From positions 1-42,450 of IMG/VR virus record IMGVR_UViG_3300049629_000649: DNA of 42,450 nt; one strand, 5' to 3'. This DNA is from a virus. Of the stretch, positions 6,146-14,237 are shown piece after piece; positions within the stretch are counted from its first letter, which is position 1, and each line of letters starts with the position of its first letter. The position numbers and the translations under genes were made by a program. The notes under the pieces are model-generated. The model saw nothing but the letters and a program-made list of their open reading frames with translations, did no database searches and was not told the DNA's origin.

Positions 6146-7033
6146 ATGTCAACAGATAGAGTTGTAGTTAGTGATACGGTTAGAGTAACTGTAAAATTTA
6201 AAGATATAGATTCCAATGGACTAGAAGTTGAGTTGTCGCCCAGCACTGTCAGCGTAACTATTAAAAACTCAAGTGGAACAACAATAGTTGCAACTAATGC
6301 AACTCAATCAACCTCATCAATATTTTACTATGACTATACACCAAGTTTAGCTGATACATATACTGTTAAATTTACTGGAACTTTATCTTCTGGAAATAAT
6401 GTAGTTGTTGAGCAAAAACTATATGTTAGTTCTGTCAGCGAAGAATATCAACCAACTATTATATTAAAAAATGAAGAAACAATTATTTTTGCCCCAAATG
6501 TAGATCCATTATATCTTGATCCCGAAACATTAATTCCATATTTTCCAGACGCGTCTTTATTGGAAATAGGAGAAATTATACATAATTACTCAAATGAAAT
6601 TAAATCATTATATGGTCTTTTGGATGAAGAAGATGGAACTAATTTATCTTTTACAGTTTTAGAATACATAAAAGCGGCAACTGCATGTGAGTTAAGTAGA
6701 ACTTATGGATTTGGTGGAGATGATGAAGTTTCGCTAAGATTGGGTGATTTTAATATTACAAATAGATCACTTCCTAGAAGAGTGGTAACTAGGGATAATG
6801 CAACGACATGGTGTCAGATAGCAACAGCTTTAAGAAAAGAAATTTTAGCAAATAAAGTCTCACCAAGATCATTTACGCCAAAAAATTTACCAAGTGTTTC
6901 AACTGGTACAAATATAGATCCATTAACTGGAAAAACAATATATCTATCAGATAAAGAATTATATGGCCCAGGAACAACCATAATATCTAAAGATGACCCT
7001 ATGCCAAAGAGGGGGTTGAAGAGCTATGATTGA
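6146..7033 (+). CDS. Neck connector (head-tail adaptor) with N-terminal Ig-like domain
   Basis: A 295-residue protein, ATG 6146 with AGAGG at 6136-6140. Two parts can be seen. Residues 1-95 form an Ig-like beta-sandwich (VVVSDTVRVTVKFKDIDSNG, FYYDYTPSLADTYTVKFTGTL, VEQKLYVS), of the type found at the N-terminus of phage BppU-like proteins. Residues about 115-235 are helical, with LLEIGEIIHNYSNEIKSLYG, EYIKAATACELSRTYGFGG, LGDFNITNRS and ATTWCQIATALRKEIL. This pattern resembles gp6/gp15-type adaptor proteins that dock on the portal, including the short beta element before the last helix. The C-terminal 60 residues look extended. The 8-base overlap with the next gene (ATG at 7026 inside the TGA context) suggests coupled translation with the head-closure candidate. 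The connector call is from fold pattern and gene order. Confidence 0.5.
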   Translation: MSTDRVVVSDTVRVTVKFKDIDSNGLEVELSPSTVSVTIKNSSGTTIVATNATQSTSSIFYYDYTPSLADTYTVKFTGTLSSGNNVVVEQKLYVSSVSEEYQPTIILKNEETIIFAPNVDPLYLDPETLIPYFPDASLLEIGEIIHNYSNEIKSLYGLLDEEDGTNLSFTVLEYIKAATACELSRTYGFGGDDEVSLRLGDFNITNRSLPRRVVTRDNATTWCQIATALRKEILANKVSPRSFTPKNLPSVSTGTNIDPLTGKTIYLSDKELYGPGTTIISKDDPMPKRGLKSYD

Positions 7034-7397
7034 CGCTAAGCGAGCATTTAGAAAAGTAATGCGCGAGTGGGGACATGATATTTATTTTCAGCGAATGTTA
7101 TCAAATGGAAATCATTCTGATCAATTTGAAAGAGTAACAACTCGTCAAGTTGGACAGTCAGGTATGACAAACGCTAACTCTACACAAGAAATGCCCGAAG
7201 GGATAGTATCAAACTATGATGCAGTCTATTACTTCGAAAAGCATATATCACCTAAAGAAGGTGATAGAATATATGAAAATTATTCTTTAAAAGTAAATAA
7301 AAATTATACTGTCTTTAAGATAGATACAGTTTCCGCTATTAGAGGTAGACTAGGTGAAATTAACTATTGGGTAGTTGGAGCTACAAGAGAGAAGTGA
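7026..7397 (+). CDS. Head-closure (stopper) protein candidate
   Basis: A 123-residue protein. ATG 7026 overlaps the end of the connector gene by 8 bases, with a G-rich site (GAGGGGG) near 7009-7015. The N-terminal helix (DAKRAFRKVMREWGHDIYFQR) is followed by a flexible segment and a beta-barrel-like end: YDAVYYFEKHISPKEGDRIYE, YTVFKIDTVSAIRGRLGEINYWVVGATRE. The pattern of a small barrel with a hydrophilic loop, a KEGDRI turn and a final strand with W.V.G fits SPP1 gp16-type stopper or closure proteins (..i...D.i......y.V..v......g...y..v.l.r). Its place right after the adaptor agrees with the common order adaptor, closure, tail completion. Next gene starts one base after the stop. Confidence 0.5.
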   Translation: MIDAKRAFRKVMREWGHDIYFQRMLSNGNHSDQFERVTTRQVGQSGMTNANSTQEMPEGIVSNYDAVYYFEKHISPKEGDRIYENYSLKVNKNYTVFKIDTVSAIRGRLGEINYWVVGATREK

Positions 7398-7398
7398 A

Positions 7399-8994
7399 AT
7401 GCTAGTATTACAAAGAGGTCAATTAGTTAAATTTAAATTTATATTTACCTCTAGAGGTTTACCGTACGATCCAACCTCAGTTGCAAGTCCATCAGATTTG
7501 TATATAACAATCCTTAGAGGGGCAGATGGTTCTGGACCAGTAATAGATGGCCCATATTCATACTGGAGTCAAAACTCTACACCAAATACTGACGCATACA
7601 TTGAAAAATCAAACACATACGAATTTACATTTAATTATAGAATTCCCAGTACATTATTTAATGGTACATATACTGTATTAGCCAGAACTTCAGACTCAGC
7701 TTCACAACTTGTAGTTACATCTAATTTTGAAGTAAAAGGTGATCCAATTACTTTATCTCCAGTTATAGTTAACTCTGAAAAAAGTACTGTTATAAATTAT
7801 CAACCACGATATGCACAACTGTCAGCAGGAAATACGTCAACTATTTTATTAATCGGGCATGCAAATAATATAGAATTAAATGTACCAGTTGAAATAAAAA
7901 CAGTTCAACAAGCGGTAGATCTTTTAGGCGCAGACTTAAAGTCTCCTCTACTAAGAGGCGTTTTTGACGCATACGCAGCAGGAGCTAGAGATATAATGAT
8001 TTGTGCGGCAGCCCCTATGTTAGAGTATGTCGAAAAATTTTATGAAAAAAATATTCCAACTACAATATTTGATCTACAAAATGCGACACCTTCTTCATAT
8101 ACTTTTTATGAAAAATATTATGAAAGATTAGAGGAAACATATTCAATAATTAAAGATCTTGATTTTGTAGATATAATTGTTCCCTTAGAAACTTCAATAC
8201 TAAAAACTAATGGTGTTGATTTTATTACACAATTAGCAGATTACTGCGCGGACTTTCATAATACAACAGGATATGTCCAGATGGGTATAATTGGTTCTAG
8301 ATCCGGTGGCGTCAATTCAGTGGATATTGACTTTTTAGAAGCAGATGAAATAATTACAGATAAGCTTACAGAGTACAATATAGACAATACTGTCCTATCA
8401 GACAATGGACGGTTTGTCATTCCAGTATATGGTGAAGGTGTCTTTCAACACTCACAAATAAATAGTTCCTATATATCAAATATGGCAGCAGCCTACGCTG
8501 GACTATTGGCTAGTAATCCATTAAACAGATCTCTAATAAGAGCTAGGGTGCCAGGATTAATGTCTTTATATGGTTCAGATTTATCTCAACAGGATTTTAG
8601 AAGATTAGAAAATATTGGGATCAATACAATATATCGTGGCAAAAAAACTAAAAGATCAATACCGTTTGAGGTATATCTAACAAATGATTATACAATGGCA
8701 AAGTCAAATAGCACACTCCAAAAAGCTGCACAAATGAGATTAGTAGGCTATGTGGTTAATATGGCTAAAGACTACGCGTATGAAAGTATAGGTAAGTTTG
8801 GTCATGATGTATTTATGGATAAACTTAATAAATTATTACGTTCAATGAAATCTGATAATATAATTTTGGATTTTTCACTTAATAGACAAGTAGCAGTTAA
8901 TGATCCTGGAAAAATGTTTGTATACATAGAACTACTATCTGCGCTTGGACTTAAAAAAATCGATTTTAGAATAGCTGCAGGACCCGGTGCATAA
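7399..8994 (+). CDS. Sheath-like protein 1, with N-terminal Ig-like domain
   Basis: I take ATG 7399 (532 residues), one base after the previous stop, rather than TTG 7375, which lies inside the closure gene. Residues 1-115 form an Ig-like domain (LVLQRGQLVKFKFIFTSRGL, YRIPSTLFNGTYTVLARTSD, LVVTSNFEVKGD). From about 140 the protein reads as a contractile-tail sheath: NTSTILLIGHANNIELNVPV, VQQAVDLLGADLKSPLLRGV, FDAYAAGARDIMICAAAP, then VAAYAGLLA-type helix (NMAAAYAGLLASNPLNRS) and the conserved C-terminal domain with LSQQDFRRLENIGINTIYRG, LVGYVVNMAKDYAYESIGKFG and DPGKMFVYIELLSALGLKKIDFRI. The next sheath gene is only about 920 bases downstream, so this is a paralogue. It may form a specialised collar-end or baseplate-end ring. 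The 1-base overlap with the next start suggests coupling. The fold call is confident, the specialised role is inference. Confidence 0.7.
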   Translation: MLVLQRGQLVKFKFIFTSRGLPYDPTSVASPSDLYITILRGADGSGPVIDGPYSYWSQNSTPNTDAYIEKSNTYEFTFNYRIPSTLFNGTYTVLARTSDSASQLVVTSNFEVKGDPITLSPVIVNSEKSTVINYQPRYAQLSAGNTSTILLIGHANNIELNVPVEIKTVQQAVDLLGADLKSPLLRGVFDAYAAGARDIMICAAAPMLEYVEKFYEKNIPTTIFDLQNATPSSYTFYEKYYERLEETYSIIKDLDFVDIIVPLETSILKTNGVDFITQLADYCADFHNTTGYVQMGIIGSRSGGVNSVDIDFLEADEIITDKLTEYNIDNTVLSDNGRFVIPVYGEGVFQHSQINSSYISNMAAAYAGLLASNPLNRSLIRARVPGLMSLYGSDLSQQDFRRLENIGINTIYRGKKTKRSIPFEVYLTNDYTMAKSNSTLQKAAQMRLVGYVVNMAKDYAYESIGKFGHDVFMDKLNKLLRSMKSDNIILDFSLNRQVAVNDPGKMFVYIELLSALGLKKIDFRIAAGPGA

Positions 8995-9803
8995 TGGTAT
9001 ATTATAATAGAGTTTTTCCAACTAGTTCAATTTCCTCAAGATGGGAAGGCGTTCCTGGTCAAGCACATTTGCAATCTCCAGGAATTAGATTAAATATTGG
9101 TGGAGTAGAAGAATTATATCCAGGTTCTCTAAACTATTTGCAATTTATATCTTTAGTTAAAAAAGTATGGGAAGAAAGTCATCCTTCTATTCCGGTTGTT
9201 CCAGTTGGGGTTAATTTAGATACATTCTCACAGCAGGTTAATGGAAAAGATATTACATCAATTATAGGATATGCATTAGAATTAAGAAAAACTCATACAG
9301 TAGAACCTAAACCAAGAATGCGTCAAAACGTAGAAAATAATAGGTATACTATATATGGGCAAAAATATCAAAATATAGTCTCATTTTCTCCTATGATGAG
9401 AATTACCACTCTTCAGGGTAGCAATCCAGGAATTACATCCGACGACATGGATGCTGCAGTCATGTGTGATCAAATTACTGAAGCTTTTGAAGATTTTATG
9501 CTTGAGTACACACCAATATTTAAGGCAGCTGGAGCTTCCGAATTAGTCTACTCTAGGCGTTTAGCTGATTCTGAAATAAATCGAGATGGATCAGATATTC
9601 ATAAAAGAACTGTTACCTATATGTTAACTACAGAAAAAACCTTTGCAATTGAAAATGCGAGAATTAGTAGCATTTTAGTAGATATACGAAATTGGATGGC
9701 TTATGAATCTGAGTACGTTAACTCTTTAGCTACTCCAAATTATGAAAATGTATCAGTAAACATTGTAGATTTAAGCAAAACAGCAACTCCAAATTCACAG
9801 TAA
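8994..9803 (+). CDS. Tail completion or terminator protein candidate
   Basis: A 269-residue protein. Its ATG shares a base with the stop of sheath-like protein 1 (TAATG). The middle (about 85-240) is a mixed alpha/beta domain: KIVSFSPMMRITTLQGSN-like strand region (QNIVSFSPMMRITTLQGSN), a helix DDMDAAVMCDQITEAFEDFMLEYTPIF, then GASELVYSRRLADSEI, RTVTYMLTTEKTFAIENARIS. A helix between strands with a beta end is the arrangement seen in tail-terminator and tail-completion proteins that cap the tube, and the position immediately before the main sheath and tube agrees. The N-terminal 75 residues (PGIRLNIGGVEELYPGSLNYLQF) are extra and unassigned. No enzymatic motifs are present. Followed by a 116-base spacer with hairpin and motif. 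Confidence 0.4.
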   Translation: MVYYNRVFPTSSISSRWEGVPGQAHLQSPGIRLNIGGVEELYPGSLNYLQFISLVKKVWEESHPSIPVVPVGVNLDTFSQQVNGKDITSIIGYALELRKTHTVEPKPRMRQNVENNRYTIYGQKYQNIVSFSPMMRITTLQGSNPGITSDDMDAAVMCDQITEAFEDFMLEYTPIFKAAGASELVYSRRLADSEINRDGSDIHKRTVTYMLTTEKTFAIENARISSILVDIRNWMAYESEYVNSLATPNYENVSVNIVDLSKTATPNSQ

Positions 9804-9824
9804 CTTATATATATTATTTTAATC

Positions 9825-9847
9825 AACAAGTCTATCTAGTTGTTTTT
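9825..9847 (+). terminator. Weak hairpin with T-run behind the tail-completion gene
   Basis: AACAA (9825-9829) can pair with TTGTT (9840-9844), followed by more T residues to 9847 (TTTTTATAACTTTTTT). The stem is only 5 A/T-rich pairs, so this is at most a weak terminator. I list it because it lies in one of the two longest spacers of the window and precedes the TTTGTTACTAT motif, just as the strong hairpin behind the capsid gene precedes the other copy. Confidence 0.25.
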
Positions 9848-9855
9848 ATAACTTT

Positions 9856-9870
9856 TTTGTTACTATAAAT
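9856..9870 (+). promoter_or_regulatory. TTTGTTACTATAAAT, possible promoter for sheath and tube genes
   Basis: TTTGTTACTAT at 9856-9866 is identical to 2332-2342 and continues as AAAT. TATAAA (9864-9869) could be a -10 element with TTGTTT (9840-9845) as a weak -35 at 18 bases. It also resembles a T4-type late element (TATAAAT). The main sheath start is 50 bases downstream, leaving room for a leader with the GGAGG site at 9903-9907. Sequence similarity only; no transcript evidence. Confidence 0.35.
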
Positions 9871-9919
9871 GAAGATTTAATTCTAAGATTTTCCATTTAG
9901 CCGGAGGTTAAAAGTCAAC

Positions 9920-11185
9920 ATGAGTATACCTGGAGTAACTACTAAAATTAGAGATCGATTCTATAGCGTAACAAGAAACGATACACCATCTGGTCCAAGA
10001 GTTGTCGCTATAGCTCGCCGTAGTACAGCTGATGGGACTGGTGGCATAGCAGATCTTGATGTCGTTAGAGCCTCAAATGAAGCTGATGTAATATCAATTT
10101 TTGGAGAAGGCTCAGACGCACATAAAGCCTTTATTGAATTAATTATTGCGGGAGCAGAAAGAATATATTTAGTTCCACTACCAAGCAATACAGCATTTAA
10201 TCATACTACAGGCTCCTTAACAAGTGGTGGGATTAGTGTATTTCAAGAAGCGTTTGATGCAGCAGAGGCAGCACTTCCTGATATCATTATTCCTTGGGGC
10301 AGAGGTGGAAATGATAGTGACTGGGAGATTCCAACTGCTACACCATCAGATTCGGATGAGTTTGGATTCCACGCAGACAATAGCACTACACTAACCTATA
10401 GCTGGACATATAAAGTTGCAAATGCCGTTAAGTCAATTTCTGAAAATAGCAATCCATGCATTGCCGTAATGGGAGTCAAGCCATACATTGCAGCCGCAGA
10501 AAAAATGACACCAGGTCAAGTAGCTGCGCATCTTGCTGTATCAGGCCTTGCCGATAGAGATGGTAGTGGCACATATGATAACGTAAATGAAATTTACCAG
10601 AAGGAACTAGGACCATATGTTACTGTAGTTGCAACGGAACTTAAGCCGGTAAATTATACTAGTGGTGGCACTGATTTTGGTTATTCTAATGGCGCATCAT
10701 TTTTAGCAGGAACATTAAGCAGACTTTCTTCATATAGCTCATTAGTTAATAAGCCAGTCTTTAATGTTCAATCACTAAGATACGCTCCAACTAGAAGTCA
10801 GCAGTCGGCACTAGCTATAAAGGGCGTAAACACAGTGGTTCTTAACTTTAATAAGATCGCTGTATTTGGAGAAAGTTTAACATTCGCTCAGTCAACATCA
10901 GATTATACTCGTTTGTCAACTAAGAGAATTATAGACGAAGCAGTTATGCTCGTCAGACAAGTGTGTCAGAGTTTTGTTGGAGAACCATCAAGTATTCAAA
11001 CAAGAAATTCGATGGAAACAGCAATTACTTCAGCACTAAGAGGAATGCAACTATTAGGAGCTATATTAGGCAGTGACTTCTCAGTATCATATGTCCCTGC
11101 TCAAAATAAAGCGATTGTTGACCTCGTATTAACACCTGCCTTCGAGTTGAGAAATATCGAAGTACAGGTAGCTATCAACCTATAA
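9920..11185 (+). CDS. Main contractile tail sheath protein
   Basis: A 421-residue protein, ATG 9920 with GGAGG at 9903-9907. It opens with SIPGVTTKIRDRFYSV, the typical sheath start (..PGVy...id.s), followed by PSGPRVVAIARRSTADGTGGIADLDVVRASNEADVISIFGEGS and DAHKAFIELIIAGAERIYLVPL, the conserved ring-forming N-terminal pattern. The C-terminal domain has YAPTRSQQSALAIKGVNTVVLNFNKIAVFGESLTFAQSTSDYTRLSTKRIIDEAVMLVR-like order (DYTRLSTKRIIDEAVMLVR), then SIQTRNSMETAITSALRGMQ, and a final strand ELRNIEVQVAINL, as expected for the C-terminal arm that links neighbouring subunits. It sits directly before the tube gene with a 25-base gap, the usual sheath-tube order. It lacks the Ig-like N-terminal domain of sheath-like protein 1. 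High expression is expected from its own spacer and candidate promoter. Confidence 0.8.
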   Translation: MSIPGVTTKIRDRFYSVTRNDTPSGPRVVAIARRSTADGTGGIADLDVVRASNEADVISIFGEGSDAHKAFIELIIAGAERIYLVPLPSNTAFNHTTGSLTSGGISVFQEAFDAAEAALPDIIIPWGRGGNDSDWEIPTATPSDSDEFGFHADNSTTLTYSWTYKVANAVKSISENSNPCIAVMGVKPYIAAAEKMTPGQVAAHLAVSGLADRDGSGTYDNVNEIYQKELGPYVTVVATELKPVNYTSGGTDFGYSNGASFLAGTLSRLSSYSSLVNKPVFNVQSLRYAPTRSQQSALAIKGVNTVVLNFNKIAVFGESLTFAQSTSDYTRLSTKRIIDEAVMLVRQVCQSFVGEPSSIQTRNSMETAITSALRGMQLLGAILGSDFSVSYVPAQNKAIVDLVLTPAFELRNIEVQVAINL

Positions 11186-11210: not shown

Positions 11211-11912
11211 ATGGCATTAGAAGATAACTATAACGATTATTCACCCACTAGTTCGTCTAAATATTTACAAACATATACCACATTTTCTGGAGCAGATATT
11301 GTTGCTACGTTTGGCGGTATAGAAATTGGCGCACTATCAGGAATTACATTCTCTGTAACTAGAGAAAAAGCTCCCATTTATACAATGGGATCCCCTAATC
11401 CTCGTTCTTTTTCTAGAGGAAAAAGAGGTATTGCTGGATCATTAATATTTACAGTTTTTGATCGTCCAGCTCTATATACAATGTTGGACAAAAATAGAAA
11501 TAATTCAAACGTTGTTCAGCAACAATTCTTCACAAGAGCCCACAACGCACTACCCGGTGATACAGCCTATAAAAACCGCGGAATTGCAGATGTAAATGAT
11601 CAGGGTTCAAGTGTTGTAAAGAAGGTCCCATACTACGCTGACCAAATCCCCCCATTTGATATTACAATTACATTTGTAAACGAATATGGTCAAGCAGCTG
11701 TAAGATCAATTTATGGCGTTGAACTCTTAAATGAAGGATCTGGCGCATCAATGGACGATATTGTCATAGAAGAAACAATGACCTATGTTGCTCGTGAACT
11801 TGGTCCCATGTATTCAATAAAGACAGATCCATTGATCGATAACGATGATCCTACAATGTCTGATTTCGTAAGAAATATTAAGAATCTTAATACAGACATT
11901 ATCAGACCATAA
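11211..11912 (+). CDS. Tail tube protein (tube paralogue 1)
   Basis: A 233-residue protein, ATG 11211 with GGAGGG at 11197-11202. Its placement right behind the sheath and its single-domain beta plan fit the gp19-like tube fold. Signature segments: FSGADIVATFGGIEIGALSG (about 24-43), ITFSVTREKAPIYTMGSPNPRSFSRGKRGIAGSLIFTVFD (about 44-83), a loop, then QIPPFDITITFVNEYGQAAVRSIYGVELLNEGSGASMDDIVIEETMTYVARELGPM (about 143-200). Two further proteins downstream share the same segments in the same order, so this is one of three paralogues. As the shortest and closest to the sheath, it is the best candidate for the main tube subunit. A strong terminator follows directly, consistent with very high expression of the sheath-tube pair. 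Confidence 0.7.
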   Translation: MALEDNYNDYSPTSSSKYLQTYTTFSGADIVATFGGIEIGALSGITFSVTREKAPIYTMGSPNPRSFSRGKRGIAGSLIFTVFDRPALYTMLDKNRNNSNVVQQQFFTRAHNALPGDTAYKNRGIADVNDQGSSVVKKVPYYADQIPPFDITITFVNEYGQAAVRSIYGVELLNEGSGASMDDIVIEETMTYVARELGPMYSIKTDPLIDNDDPTMSDFVRNIKNLNTDIIRP

Positions 11913-11930
11913 TTTATAAAATTATCTGCA

Positions 11931-11972
11931 ATATAGGCACGGGCATTAATTAGCTCGTGCCTATATTTATTT
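11931..11972 (+). terminator. Strong intrinsic terminator behind the tube gene
   Basis: ATATAGGCACGGGC (11931-11944) pairs with GCTCGTGCCTATAT (11953-11966) over 14 positions, with one G-T wobble, around the 8-base loop ATTAATTA. A T-rich tail (TTATTT) follows. The AAGGAG of the next gene begins at 11973, so the hairpin ends just before the leader. It would separate the abundant sheath-tube transcript from minor tail genes. Confidence 0.85.
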
Positions 11973-11982
11973 AAGGAGCAAT

Positions 11983-12753
11983 ATGTCAACAGTATATAAT
12001 ACATTTAATGAGGCGAATGCGCAGACAACAAATGCAACAACTGACGCTCCAAATAAAGTTAATTATGATCAAAACTATACTCTTCAAAATATTTCATTTA
12101 GCGGAGCAGATGCAGTAGCTACATTGATTGTTCCCATTATTGGTCCAGATAATAAGCCAGTTGGTTCAGACATTATTGAACTTGGTGAACTACAAACAAT
12201 ATCATATTCTATACATAGAGAAAATTCTCCAGTTAGAACACTGGGTCATGTTAATACAAGAGGCTTTGTTAAAGGTGCTAGAACAATAGCTGGAAGCCTT
12301 ATTTTTGCAGTATTTAATGAATACGCATTTTATAGACTTAGTCAATATAGACAAATGTTATACCGTGGCAATGGTTTCTTCGCACCTTTAGCAGATATGT
12401 TGCCACCATTTGATATAATTATTACATTAGTTAACGAATATGGCCAGTACGCTAAGATGAAAATATTTGGAGTAACAATTATAGACGAAGGTCAAACATT
12501 ATCTATAGATGACCTATTTATAGAGCAAACATATACATTTATGGCTAGAGGCATACAGCCATTAATTAAGATGAGTAAAGAGCAAGATCCAAATTCAACC
12601 ACAAGCGCAGAAGTGTCGGCAAGAAATATCCAGATATCACAGAATGTATTTGGTGACGTGGTTACTAGTCAGTACGCCCAGCTACTAGATGAATATTACG
12701 ATGAAGCACTAGATGCAAGCATCAATCCAACAGAAACTATAGCGAGGCCTTAA
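11983..12753 (+). CDS. Tube-fold paralogue 2 (tube initiator or tube-end candidate)
   Basis: A 256-residue protein, ATG 11983 with AAGGAG at 11973-11978. It shares the full pattern of the tube protein: FSGADAVATLIVPIIGPDNK, then IIELGELQTISYSIHRENSP, VRTLGHVNTRGFVKGARTIAGSLIFAVFNEYAF, MLPPFDIIITLVNEYGQYAKMKIFGVTIIDEGQ, LSIDDLFIEQTYTFMARGIQPL. It differs by an insert (PDNKPVGSD) near residue 55 and a longer acidic C-terminal tail (QYAQLLDEYYDEALDASINP). Since it is separated from the main tube gene by a strong terminator, it is probably made in smaller amounts. In T4, gp48 and gp54 are tube-fold proteins that start the tube on the baseplate, and a similar role is possible here. Next gene starts 2 bases after its stop. 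Confidence 0.6.
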   Translation: MSTVYNTFNEANAQTTNATTDAPNKVNYDQNYTLQNISFSGADAVATLIVPIIGPDNKPVGSDIIELGELQTISYSIHRENSPVRTLGHVNTRGFVKGARTIAGSLIFAVFNEYAFYRLSQYRQMLYRGNGFFAPLADMLPPFDIIITLVNEYGQYAKMKIFGVTIIDEGQTLSIDDLFIEQTYTFMARGIQPLIKMSKEQDPNSTTSAEVSARNIQISQNVFGDVVTSQYAQLLDEYYDEALDASINPTETIARP

Positions 12754-12755
12754 AT

Positions 12756-14237
12756 ATGACTTCACAAAGAAGACCATTATTATTTGATCCACTTTCCGAC
12801 AGAGATTCTAATATAGATAGAATATGGGCCGGTCAATCTTCTGATTCTAGTAAAAATTTTAGTAATTATTATGACTATTATTTTAGCGGTGAAGATATAA
12901 AAGTTTATATAGATGGTCTTTTTGGCGCAGAAAATGAACTAGATATAGCCACATTTGCATACTCCATAAGGCAAGAAAAGCAACCGTTATATGGATTTTG
13001 GTCATATAACTACGATAATGTGATGTTGGGCACAAGAATAATCAGCGGTGAAATTACATTATTCACTAGATACCCAAGAAGAATGACTGATCTATTAGAA
13101 CAGGCAGCTACAGCTAGAGCAACACTTCCAGCTGAAAGAGCTCCTCAAAATATGATAGTGTCAAACTTGTATTCAAATAATGGACAAATTTTGGGTTCAA
13201 CTCAAGATGAAAGAAATATACAAAAATATTGGGCCTATAGTCAATTAGATAGAATAACTTCAGATCCAGCAATGTCTGAAGCTAGCAATAAAAGTATCTT
13301 TAGCGCACATCCACCATTTAATTTTGTTATTCTTTATGGTATAGAAGAAGTTTCTTCTAGTCCATTTCCTACACCTTCTCCAGACACCGGTGCAACTGAT
13401 AATGTAAATCTAAAAATAGAAAATAACTTAGACAGAATGATGTATACAGACATTAATCAAAGGACAATGAAAGCCGACGCCGCATCATCTCCGATGAAAA
13501 TCATACTACAAGAAGTTCAATTAATGAATATGTCTACCGTATATACTCCTGGTGGTCAGCCAGTCGCAGAGAGTTATCAATTTATAGCTAGAGATTATTA
13601 CTTCACACAAGCTGATCTTAGCTTTATTAAGAGACTATCTACATCTGTAACATCAGACGAAACTGTAGCAGAACCAACTAACCCAAATCCAATTCCAGAA
13701 GAAACGATAACAGGAGGAAATGGATCAAATACACCTGGCCCAGATATCGGTGGATCATATGGGTATCCTGGTTATGAATTAACTTTTGGAACACCGCAAA
13801 ATGCATACATTGGAATAATTCAAGAAAAATTAGGTATTTATCCAATTAATGGAAGATTTAGCGGTGAACTAGCTGAAGCTGTTGCTGAATTCCAACTTTC
13901 AGTAGGAATAACTCCAGCTAATGGAATAGTCAATAGGCAAACATATGAATCTATACTTAATATATTTGAACCTGGAGTTCCAGATACACTGACCTTAGTT
14001 TGGCCTGGCCCAATTCAATATGGGTATGAAAGTGAATACGTAAAGTGGATTCAAAGAAAACTAGGCTTTAAGCCTAGTGGACCTCCTGACAGCGATCCAG
14101 CAATTGGAATTGCAGAATTTGGAACGTTTGGTTCAGTAACCTTAGAGGCTGTTATTAATTTTCAGGCTGCAAATGGAATATCACCAGCCAATGGCATTGT
14201 AGATGCTCAAACGTGGCAACTAATTTTTTCTATTTAG
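12756..14237 (+). CDS. Tube-fold paralogue 3 fused to two peptidoglycan-binding domains
   Basis: A 493-residue protein, ATG 12756, two bases after the previous stop. The first 290 residues repeat the tube-family order with insertions: YYFSGEDIKVYIDGLFGAEN, IATFAYSIRQEKQPLYGFWS, GTRIISGEITLFTRYPRRM, FSAHPPFNFVILYGIEEV, MKIILQEVQLMNMSTVYTPGG and SYQFIARDYYF. A Pro/Gly/Asn-rich linker (about 305-340) follows. Residues about 345-400 (IGIIQEKLGIYPINGRFSG, ELAEAVAEFQLSVGITPANG, IVNRQTYESIL) and about 424-493 (EYVKWIQRKLGFKPSG, FGTFGSVTLEAVINFQAANG, IVDAQTWQLIF) are two PG_binding_1-type repeats. These bind peptidoglycan in cell-wall hydrolases, but no catalytic domain is present here. It probably sits near the tail tip and anchors it to the wall; position in the virion is inferred. 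Confidence 0.7.
   Translation: MTSQRRPLLFDPLSDRDSNIDRIWAGQSSDSSKNFSNYYDYYFSGEDIKVYIDGLFGAENELDIATFAYSIRQEKQPLYGFWSYNYDNVMLGTRIISGEITLFTRYPRRMTDLLEQAATARATLPAERAPQNMIVSNLYSNNGQILGSTQDERNIQKYWAYSQLDRITSDPAMSEASNKSIFSAHPPFNFVILYGIEEVSSSPFPTPSPDTGATDNVNLKIENNLDRMMYTDINQRTMKADAASSPMKIILQEVQLMNMSTVYTPGGQPVAESYQFIARDYYFTQADLSFIKRLSTSVTSDETVAEPTNPNPIPEETITGGNGSNTPGPDIGGSYGYPGYELTFGTPQNAYIGIIQEKLGIYPINGRFSGELAEAVAEFQLSVGITPANGIVNRQTYESILNIFEPGVPDTLTLVWPGPIQYGYESEYVKWIQRKLGFKPSGPPDSDPAIGIAEFGTFGSVTLEAVINFQAANGISPANGIVDAQTWQLIFSI

Follow-up and report, generated by a model that had tools for sequence, protein, structure and literature searches.

Why does one contractile tail gene cluster encode two tail-sheath proteins, and would both do the same work? 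This question is raised by the stretch of 42,450 bases analyzed here (the window), taken from the IMG/VR virus record IMGVR_UViG_3300049629_000649. By its gene content it looks like the structural part of a large myovirus genome: a major capsid gene (1175-2239) and neck genes are followed by two sheath genes, three tube-like genes and, further downstream, very long genes. The upstream sheath gene (S1; 7399-8994, 531 aa) and the downstream one (S2; 9920-11185, 421 aa) stand on either side of a tail-terminator candidate (TT; 8994-9803, 269 aa); these and all neck and tail features described below are on the plus strand. A first-pass annotation of the sequence had proposed two sheath genes around a tail-completion candidate at exactly these positions. 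Both the proposal and the coordinates hold, with S1 starting at the ATG at 7399; S1 is identified by sequence and fold and S2 by sequence. In our reading, to which we give about an even chance, S2 would be the trunk sheath made in bulk and S1 a low-copy specialised ring, most likely at the neck.

Sheath identity of the two products

S1 is a tail-sheath protein, as judged from family matches and modelled fold. The window copy matches the tail sheath PHROGs phrog_279 (2.1e-6) and phrog_10244 (8.4e-5), and among the 26 relatives in its family there are matches to four sheath PHROGs, the best at 3.9e-14, and to Pfam Phage_sheath_1, the best at 1.9e-6. For the structure, an AlphaFold model was built from the 26-sequence alignment (mean predicted local distance difference test score, pLDDT, 66.7). 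Compared with solved structures, sheaths topped both the Foldseek (best E 9e-13) and the VIA results, the latter with the sheath of the Streptomyces contractile injection system (CIS; Z 25.8 over 319 residues), PVC (Z 25.3) and Afp (Z 25.1). The comparison with T4 gp18 that had been suggested as a check gave Z 22.8 over 319 residues, confirming that the sheath fold is present. A profile search of PDB sequences with the S1 window alignment gave no match, while the wider set of upstream copies matched the phage 812 sheath at 3.2e-7.

Because some sheath paralogues of Afp and PVC are position-specific and extra sheath chains occur in baseplate entries, the main rival to a neck ring is that S1 forms the baseplate-proximal sheath ring, as a sheath starter, like the third Afp/PVC sheath protein is thought to do, with S2 forming the rest. 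Sheath chains in the baseplate maps of PVC (6j0n_V, Z 25.3) and Afp (6rao_E, Z 25.1) are among the best VIA matches, the corresponding trunk sheaths score lower (6j0b_A, Z 21.5; 6rbn_C, Z 19.9), and low expression would suit a single ring. However, the Streptomyces CIS trunk sheath 8bl4_A scores equally high (Z 25.3), so that the VIA ranking does not discriminate baseplate from trunk, and in every relative seen S1 or its counterpart sits among the neck genes, a long way from those of the baseplate. We therefore regard a baseplate ring as unlikely, though worth keeping in view.

The S1 sheath core comprises residues about 147-531 (7837-8994); VIA rows cover model residues about 140-520 and the PHROG match residues 277-522. 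Ahead of it lies a beta-sandwich of residues about 1-112 (7399-7734), all-beta in the model with a pLDDT of 75-89, which supports the extra Ig-like N-terminal domain proposed in the first-pass annotation. In Foldseek this domain matched transglutaminase rows over about 121 columns, probably their beta-sandwich domains, and in Pfam nothing better than Big_13 at E 0.1. A homology test against the Ig-like domain of the neck gene product encoded at 6146-7033 was no better than the reversed control. In all 50 listed VIA matches to solved entries the alignment begins within the first 34 residues of chain numbering, which makes a folded domain ahead of the core unusual. What varies in S1 among the relatives is its N-terminus, and two of them (in L042 and L045; start 7252) carry about 90 extra residues near it, giving 624 aa in total. 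The core and the C-terminal strand are both conserved. This conservation speaks against S1 being a collar or neck-covering protein that reuses the sheath fold and takes no part in contraction, a reading that we hold to be improbable even though S1 is placed among neck genes, has the additional beta-sandwich, and has a parallel in phage Milano, whose neck bears a sheath-like collar of its own protein gp13 (PMC10491603).

An alternative S1 start at the TTG at 7375 was rejected, as the relatives begin at the same methionine as the ATG at 7399. The gene had also been described as AT-rich, which is correct relative to S2 (GC 33.1% vs 40.2%) but not relative to its neighbors (32-34%). Its GC content at third codon positions (18.2%) is likewise neighbor-like, and foreign codon use was therefore rejected.

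By its sequence matches S2 is a sheath protein. The window copy matches phrog_16991 at 2.7e-27 and phrog_10244 at 1.1e-11, and it shows 31-34% identity over about 230 residues (E about 1e-23) to annotated sheaths of Bacillus and Cytobacillus plasmids. The S2 structure model reached a pLDDT of just 44.7, and a fold search from such a model gave no meaningful match. With the S2 profile, the sole match among PDB sequences was Afp3 at 0.32; with the downstream copies as a wider set, Afp3 was matched at 3.3e-5.

Conservation and divergence of the pair

The pair is kept together throughout the relatives. In all 197 fetched S2 loci, S1 and the intervening gene precede S2, and S2 is present in 181 of the 181 S1 loci that extend far enough downstream. 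Some of the 197 loci are the same contig fetched repeatedly; an 80-locus subset represents 80 distinct IMG/VR contigs, and S1 stands at the corresponding site in all 80. Each of six large relatives (170-216 kb) has a single copy of S1 and of S2, except for one record with overlapping ends. In this record (G001, L037; 216,024 bp), S1 and the S2 element are both present twice, once at either end; the ends overlap by roughly 8.6 kb and suggest a genome of about 207 kb. In close pairs dN/dS was 0.02-0.11 for S1 and 0.06-0.16 for S2, and both genes are under strong purifying selection.

The gene order in the relatives is adaptor and stopper candidates, S1, TT, S2 and T1, the last being the major tail-tube candidate. 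The adaptor candidate (6146-7033, 295 aa), which lies directly upstream in relatives too, has an N-terminal Ig-like domain and a helical C-terminal part and matches a head-tail adaptor PHROG at E 0.1 at best. The head-tail stopper candidate (7026-7397, 123 aa) matches the virion structural protein phrog_38102 at 2e-5 and, in a profile match (probability 82%), the gene at the same place in Moorella phage MTATph1. For both, gene order suggests the role. TT matches the virion structural protein phrog_20284 at 3.5e-9 and has orthologues at the same place in MTATph1, Bacillus phage vB_BauM_KLEB27-3, plasmids and Acinetobacter phage vB_AbaM_ME3; its position and a conserved strand-like C-terminal end point to a putative terminator role.

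S1 and S2 have diverged strongly, the direct profile match between them being weak (P 0.027). The S1 profile matches the upstream copies of other lineages with E 1.6e-13 over 347 columns and the wider downstream, S2-type copies with E 1.5e-19 over 280 columns. An arm signature PG[VIF] is found at the start of 25/25 S2 relatives and of 8/8 other downstream sheaths from two-sheath genomes, and it is absent from the arm in 26/26 S1 relatives and from the starts of other upstream copies.

Expression signals and the roles of S1 and S2

The two sheath genes also differ in their expression context. S1 is closely packed: in most relatives 0-6 nt separate it from the stopper gene, and its distance to TT is 1 or -1 nt. 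The gap before S2 measures 100-117 nt in relatives and holds a conserved 29-bp element, GTTRTTTTTATRA-N7-GTTACTATA (9839-9867 in the window; alignment of 19 relatives), a putative promoter of S2 and T1. The element is exact in 40 of 65 unique S2 upstream regions, always with an offset of 20. Five large relatives (G002-G006) have one site per genome and the record with overlapping ends has two; being single in relatives of 170-210 kb, it is not a general late promoter. In the 150 bp preceding S1, TT or T1 the GTTACTATA half was never found. In a generic promoter and terminator scan, promoter-like sites stayed at chance level and the hairpin after T1 was missed.

Ribosome-site duplexes in the relatives had median energies of -3.2 kcal/mol for S1, -10.2 for S2 and -9.8 for T1 (S1 vs S2, p 3e-7); in the window, the S2 site is GGAGG with -10.2 kcal/mol. 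T1 (11211-11912) shows 53% identity to the KLEB27-3 'tail tube' and 48% to that of MTATph1. The hairpin 3' of T1 (11930-11967, 15 pairs, z -7.65), a terminator or 3'-end stem, covaries, with both-sided changes in 11/17 pairs among 15 relatives, and terminator-like hairpins stand at the same place, 3' of the tube gene, in MTATph1 and KLEB27-3. With upstream element, strong ribosome sites and covarying hairpin, S2 and T1 look like an insulated expression unit. A further strong hairpin lies 3' of the major capsid gene (about 2278-2317), as though each of the most abundant virion proteins were given its own transcript end.

Two more tube-like genes follow T1, namely T2 (11983-12753), a second paralogue with 35% identity to T1 and a match at 3.6e-43 to phrog_9206, the family shared with T1, and T3 (12756-14237), a third, diverged protein (phrog_9206, 0.005) with C-terminal peptidoglycan-binding repeats (PF01471, 7.5e-17, two stretches). 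Three tube-like paralogues thus stand in a row in the window (11211-14237), and KLEB27-3 likewise has three consecutive annotated tube genes.

From the expression signals and the arm signature, not from protein amounts, S1 and S2 are probably not interchangeable, S2 probably being the bulk sheath. S2 and the tube protein would both be produced abundantly from the insulated two-gene unit, and S2 would polymerise around the tube to give the contractile trunk. S1, as an anciently diverged sheath paralogue, would be a minor product of the neck operon and would form a head-proximal ring at the neck; its low copy number, its ring position and the use of its arms are what we infer. A head-proximal ring fits S1 best because it is encoded between the stopper and terminator candidates, would be made in small amounts and has an added domain. 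In solved tails, the head-nearer ring, whether terminator or sheath, donates a C-terminal strand to the next disc (PMC12886913; Milano and pyocin, PMC10491603).

The same data bear on a heteropolymeric trunk, in which S1 and S2 would co-assemble along the tail, as proposed for Pseudomonas phage PaBG and as Afp2 and Afp3 appear to do. S1 retains a full sheath core, two-component phage sheaths have been described (PMC7412058), and Afp3 occurs in helical-sheath entries as well as in baseplate and cap entries. Nevertheless, S1 and S2 differ strongly in ribosome-site strength and operon context, their arm signatures differ, and with a profile P of 0.027 they are far more diverged than the PaBG pair with its 38% identity (PMC7412058), so that we think co-assembly rather unlikely. 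The first-pass annotation had offered either a specialised ring at the neck or baseplate or a mixed sheath. Gene order, operon structure and ribosome-site strength would favor a specialised low-copy ring, at the neck rather than the baseplate, over a mixed sheath.

Several observations weigh against S1 as a neck ring and S2 as the trunk. Gene order is merely a guide to virion position. The upstream copies of other lineages (346-621 aa) have no N-terminal beta-sandwich, their core starting within about 30 residues, and the sandwich thus cannot account for the arrangement across lineages. The tree neither supports nor rejects a single origin of the upstream copies (approximately unbiased test, p 0.29 for one clade). 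Also, the PG signature is not universal for trunk sheaths, as single-sheath ME3 has VGI and, to our knowledge, the phage 812 sheath is without it.

Distribution and relation to known systems

The arrangement extends beyond the closest relatives. In MTATph1 (CDS17/CDS19) and KLEB27-3 (gp23/gp25), two annotated 'tail sheath' genes flank one gene, and the pair is followed by two to three tube-like genes. The window capsid is 43% identical to that of KLEB27-3 and 40% to that of MTATph1, and by capsid and tube homology and gene order the window shares a structural lineage with these phages. They differ from it in the missing beta-sandwich of the upstream copy and in very low sheath sequence identity. 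ME3 belongs to the same capsid, tube and terminator lineage, but a single sheath gene was found in it when searched with two sheath profiles. The BFVD entries A7KUR1 (530 aa) and A7KUR3, which from their accession block we presume to belong to Bacillus phage 0305phi8-36, may be a matching pair. This phage is tied to the lineage solely via ME3 (PMC5000817).

In five plasmids of Bacillus, Cytobacillus and Paenibacillus (200-240 kb), a 'hypothetical' gene at the place of S1 matches sheath PHROGs (E 3.8e-5 to 4e-19), followed, where tested, by a phrog_20284 gene and then by main sheath and tube. A sixth, B. velezensis pAD3 (L212, 3066-4564), has an intact downstream sheath gene, but its upstream one is split into two parts that lie in different frames, through either a break in the gene or a sequencing error. 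These plasmids (L211-L216) are phage-plasmids with the same virion module, their tail genes being mostly annotated as hypothetical. Bacterial genome contigs searched with the KLEB27-3 sheath yielded no relative.

That contractile phages normally have one sheath gene, as the first-pass annotation stated, is a fair rule with published exceptions (PaBG and its group, Afp/PVC, and Bacteroidales injection systems, BIS), and in the present lineage two sheaths are the rule. Two sheath genes per phage are thus already known, from PaBG, from a review that notes phages with two sheath copies (PMC9230969), and from the public annotation of KLEB27-3 and MTATph1. PaBG (Lupandier group) is likewise a jumbo phage with two sheath genes, and both proteins occur in its virions (PMC7412058). 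Its pair is 38% identical, stems from a within-group duplication and is encoded far apart, by genes 76 and 213 (PMC7412058); S1 and S2 are much more diverged, do not align as readily and are adjacent around a terminator gene. Afp and PVC also have several sheath paralogues per machine, some of them position-specific, and their sheaths are matched by the S1 model. Unlike the window with its capsid gene at 1175-2239 and its six large relatives with one S1 and one S2 per genome, these systems are headless and have three adjacent sheath genes (PMC9230969), which do not flank a terminator gene. BIS of architecture 1 have two sheath and two tube genes per cluster (PMC7394362) and are headless injection systems as well. 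In the open-licence literature, no study of this arrangement or of the KLEB27-3/MTATph1 sheath pair was found, and the non-equivalence of S1 and S2, their long conservation flanking a terminator gene, and the apparently separate unit of trunk sheath and tube appear to be undescribed there.

For annotators, the locus is a warning that a pair of 'tail sheath' calls within a cluster may be genuine and non-equivalent. In the literature covered, contractile phage tails use one sheath protein throughout, with terminator and baseplate dealing with the end rings. More tentatively than for the window itself, a dedicated head-proximal sheath ring, specified by the neck operon and kept for long next to the tail terminator, may be a standard though undescribed virion part across this jumbo-phage lineage, in which case a specialised subunit, and not just the terminator, would hold the sheath to the neck. 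If this is true, a lineage with a constant neck-encoded second sheath would be a natural system for studying what fixes a sheath at the head and by what route strain reaches the neck on contraction.

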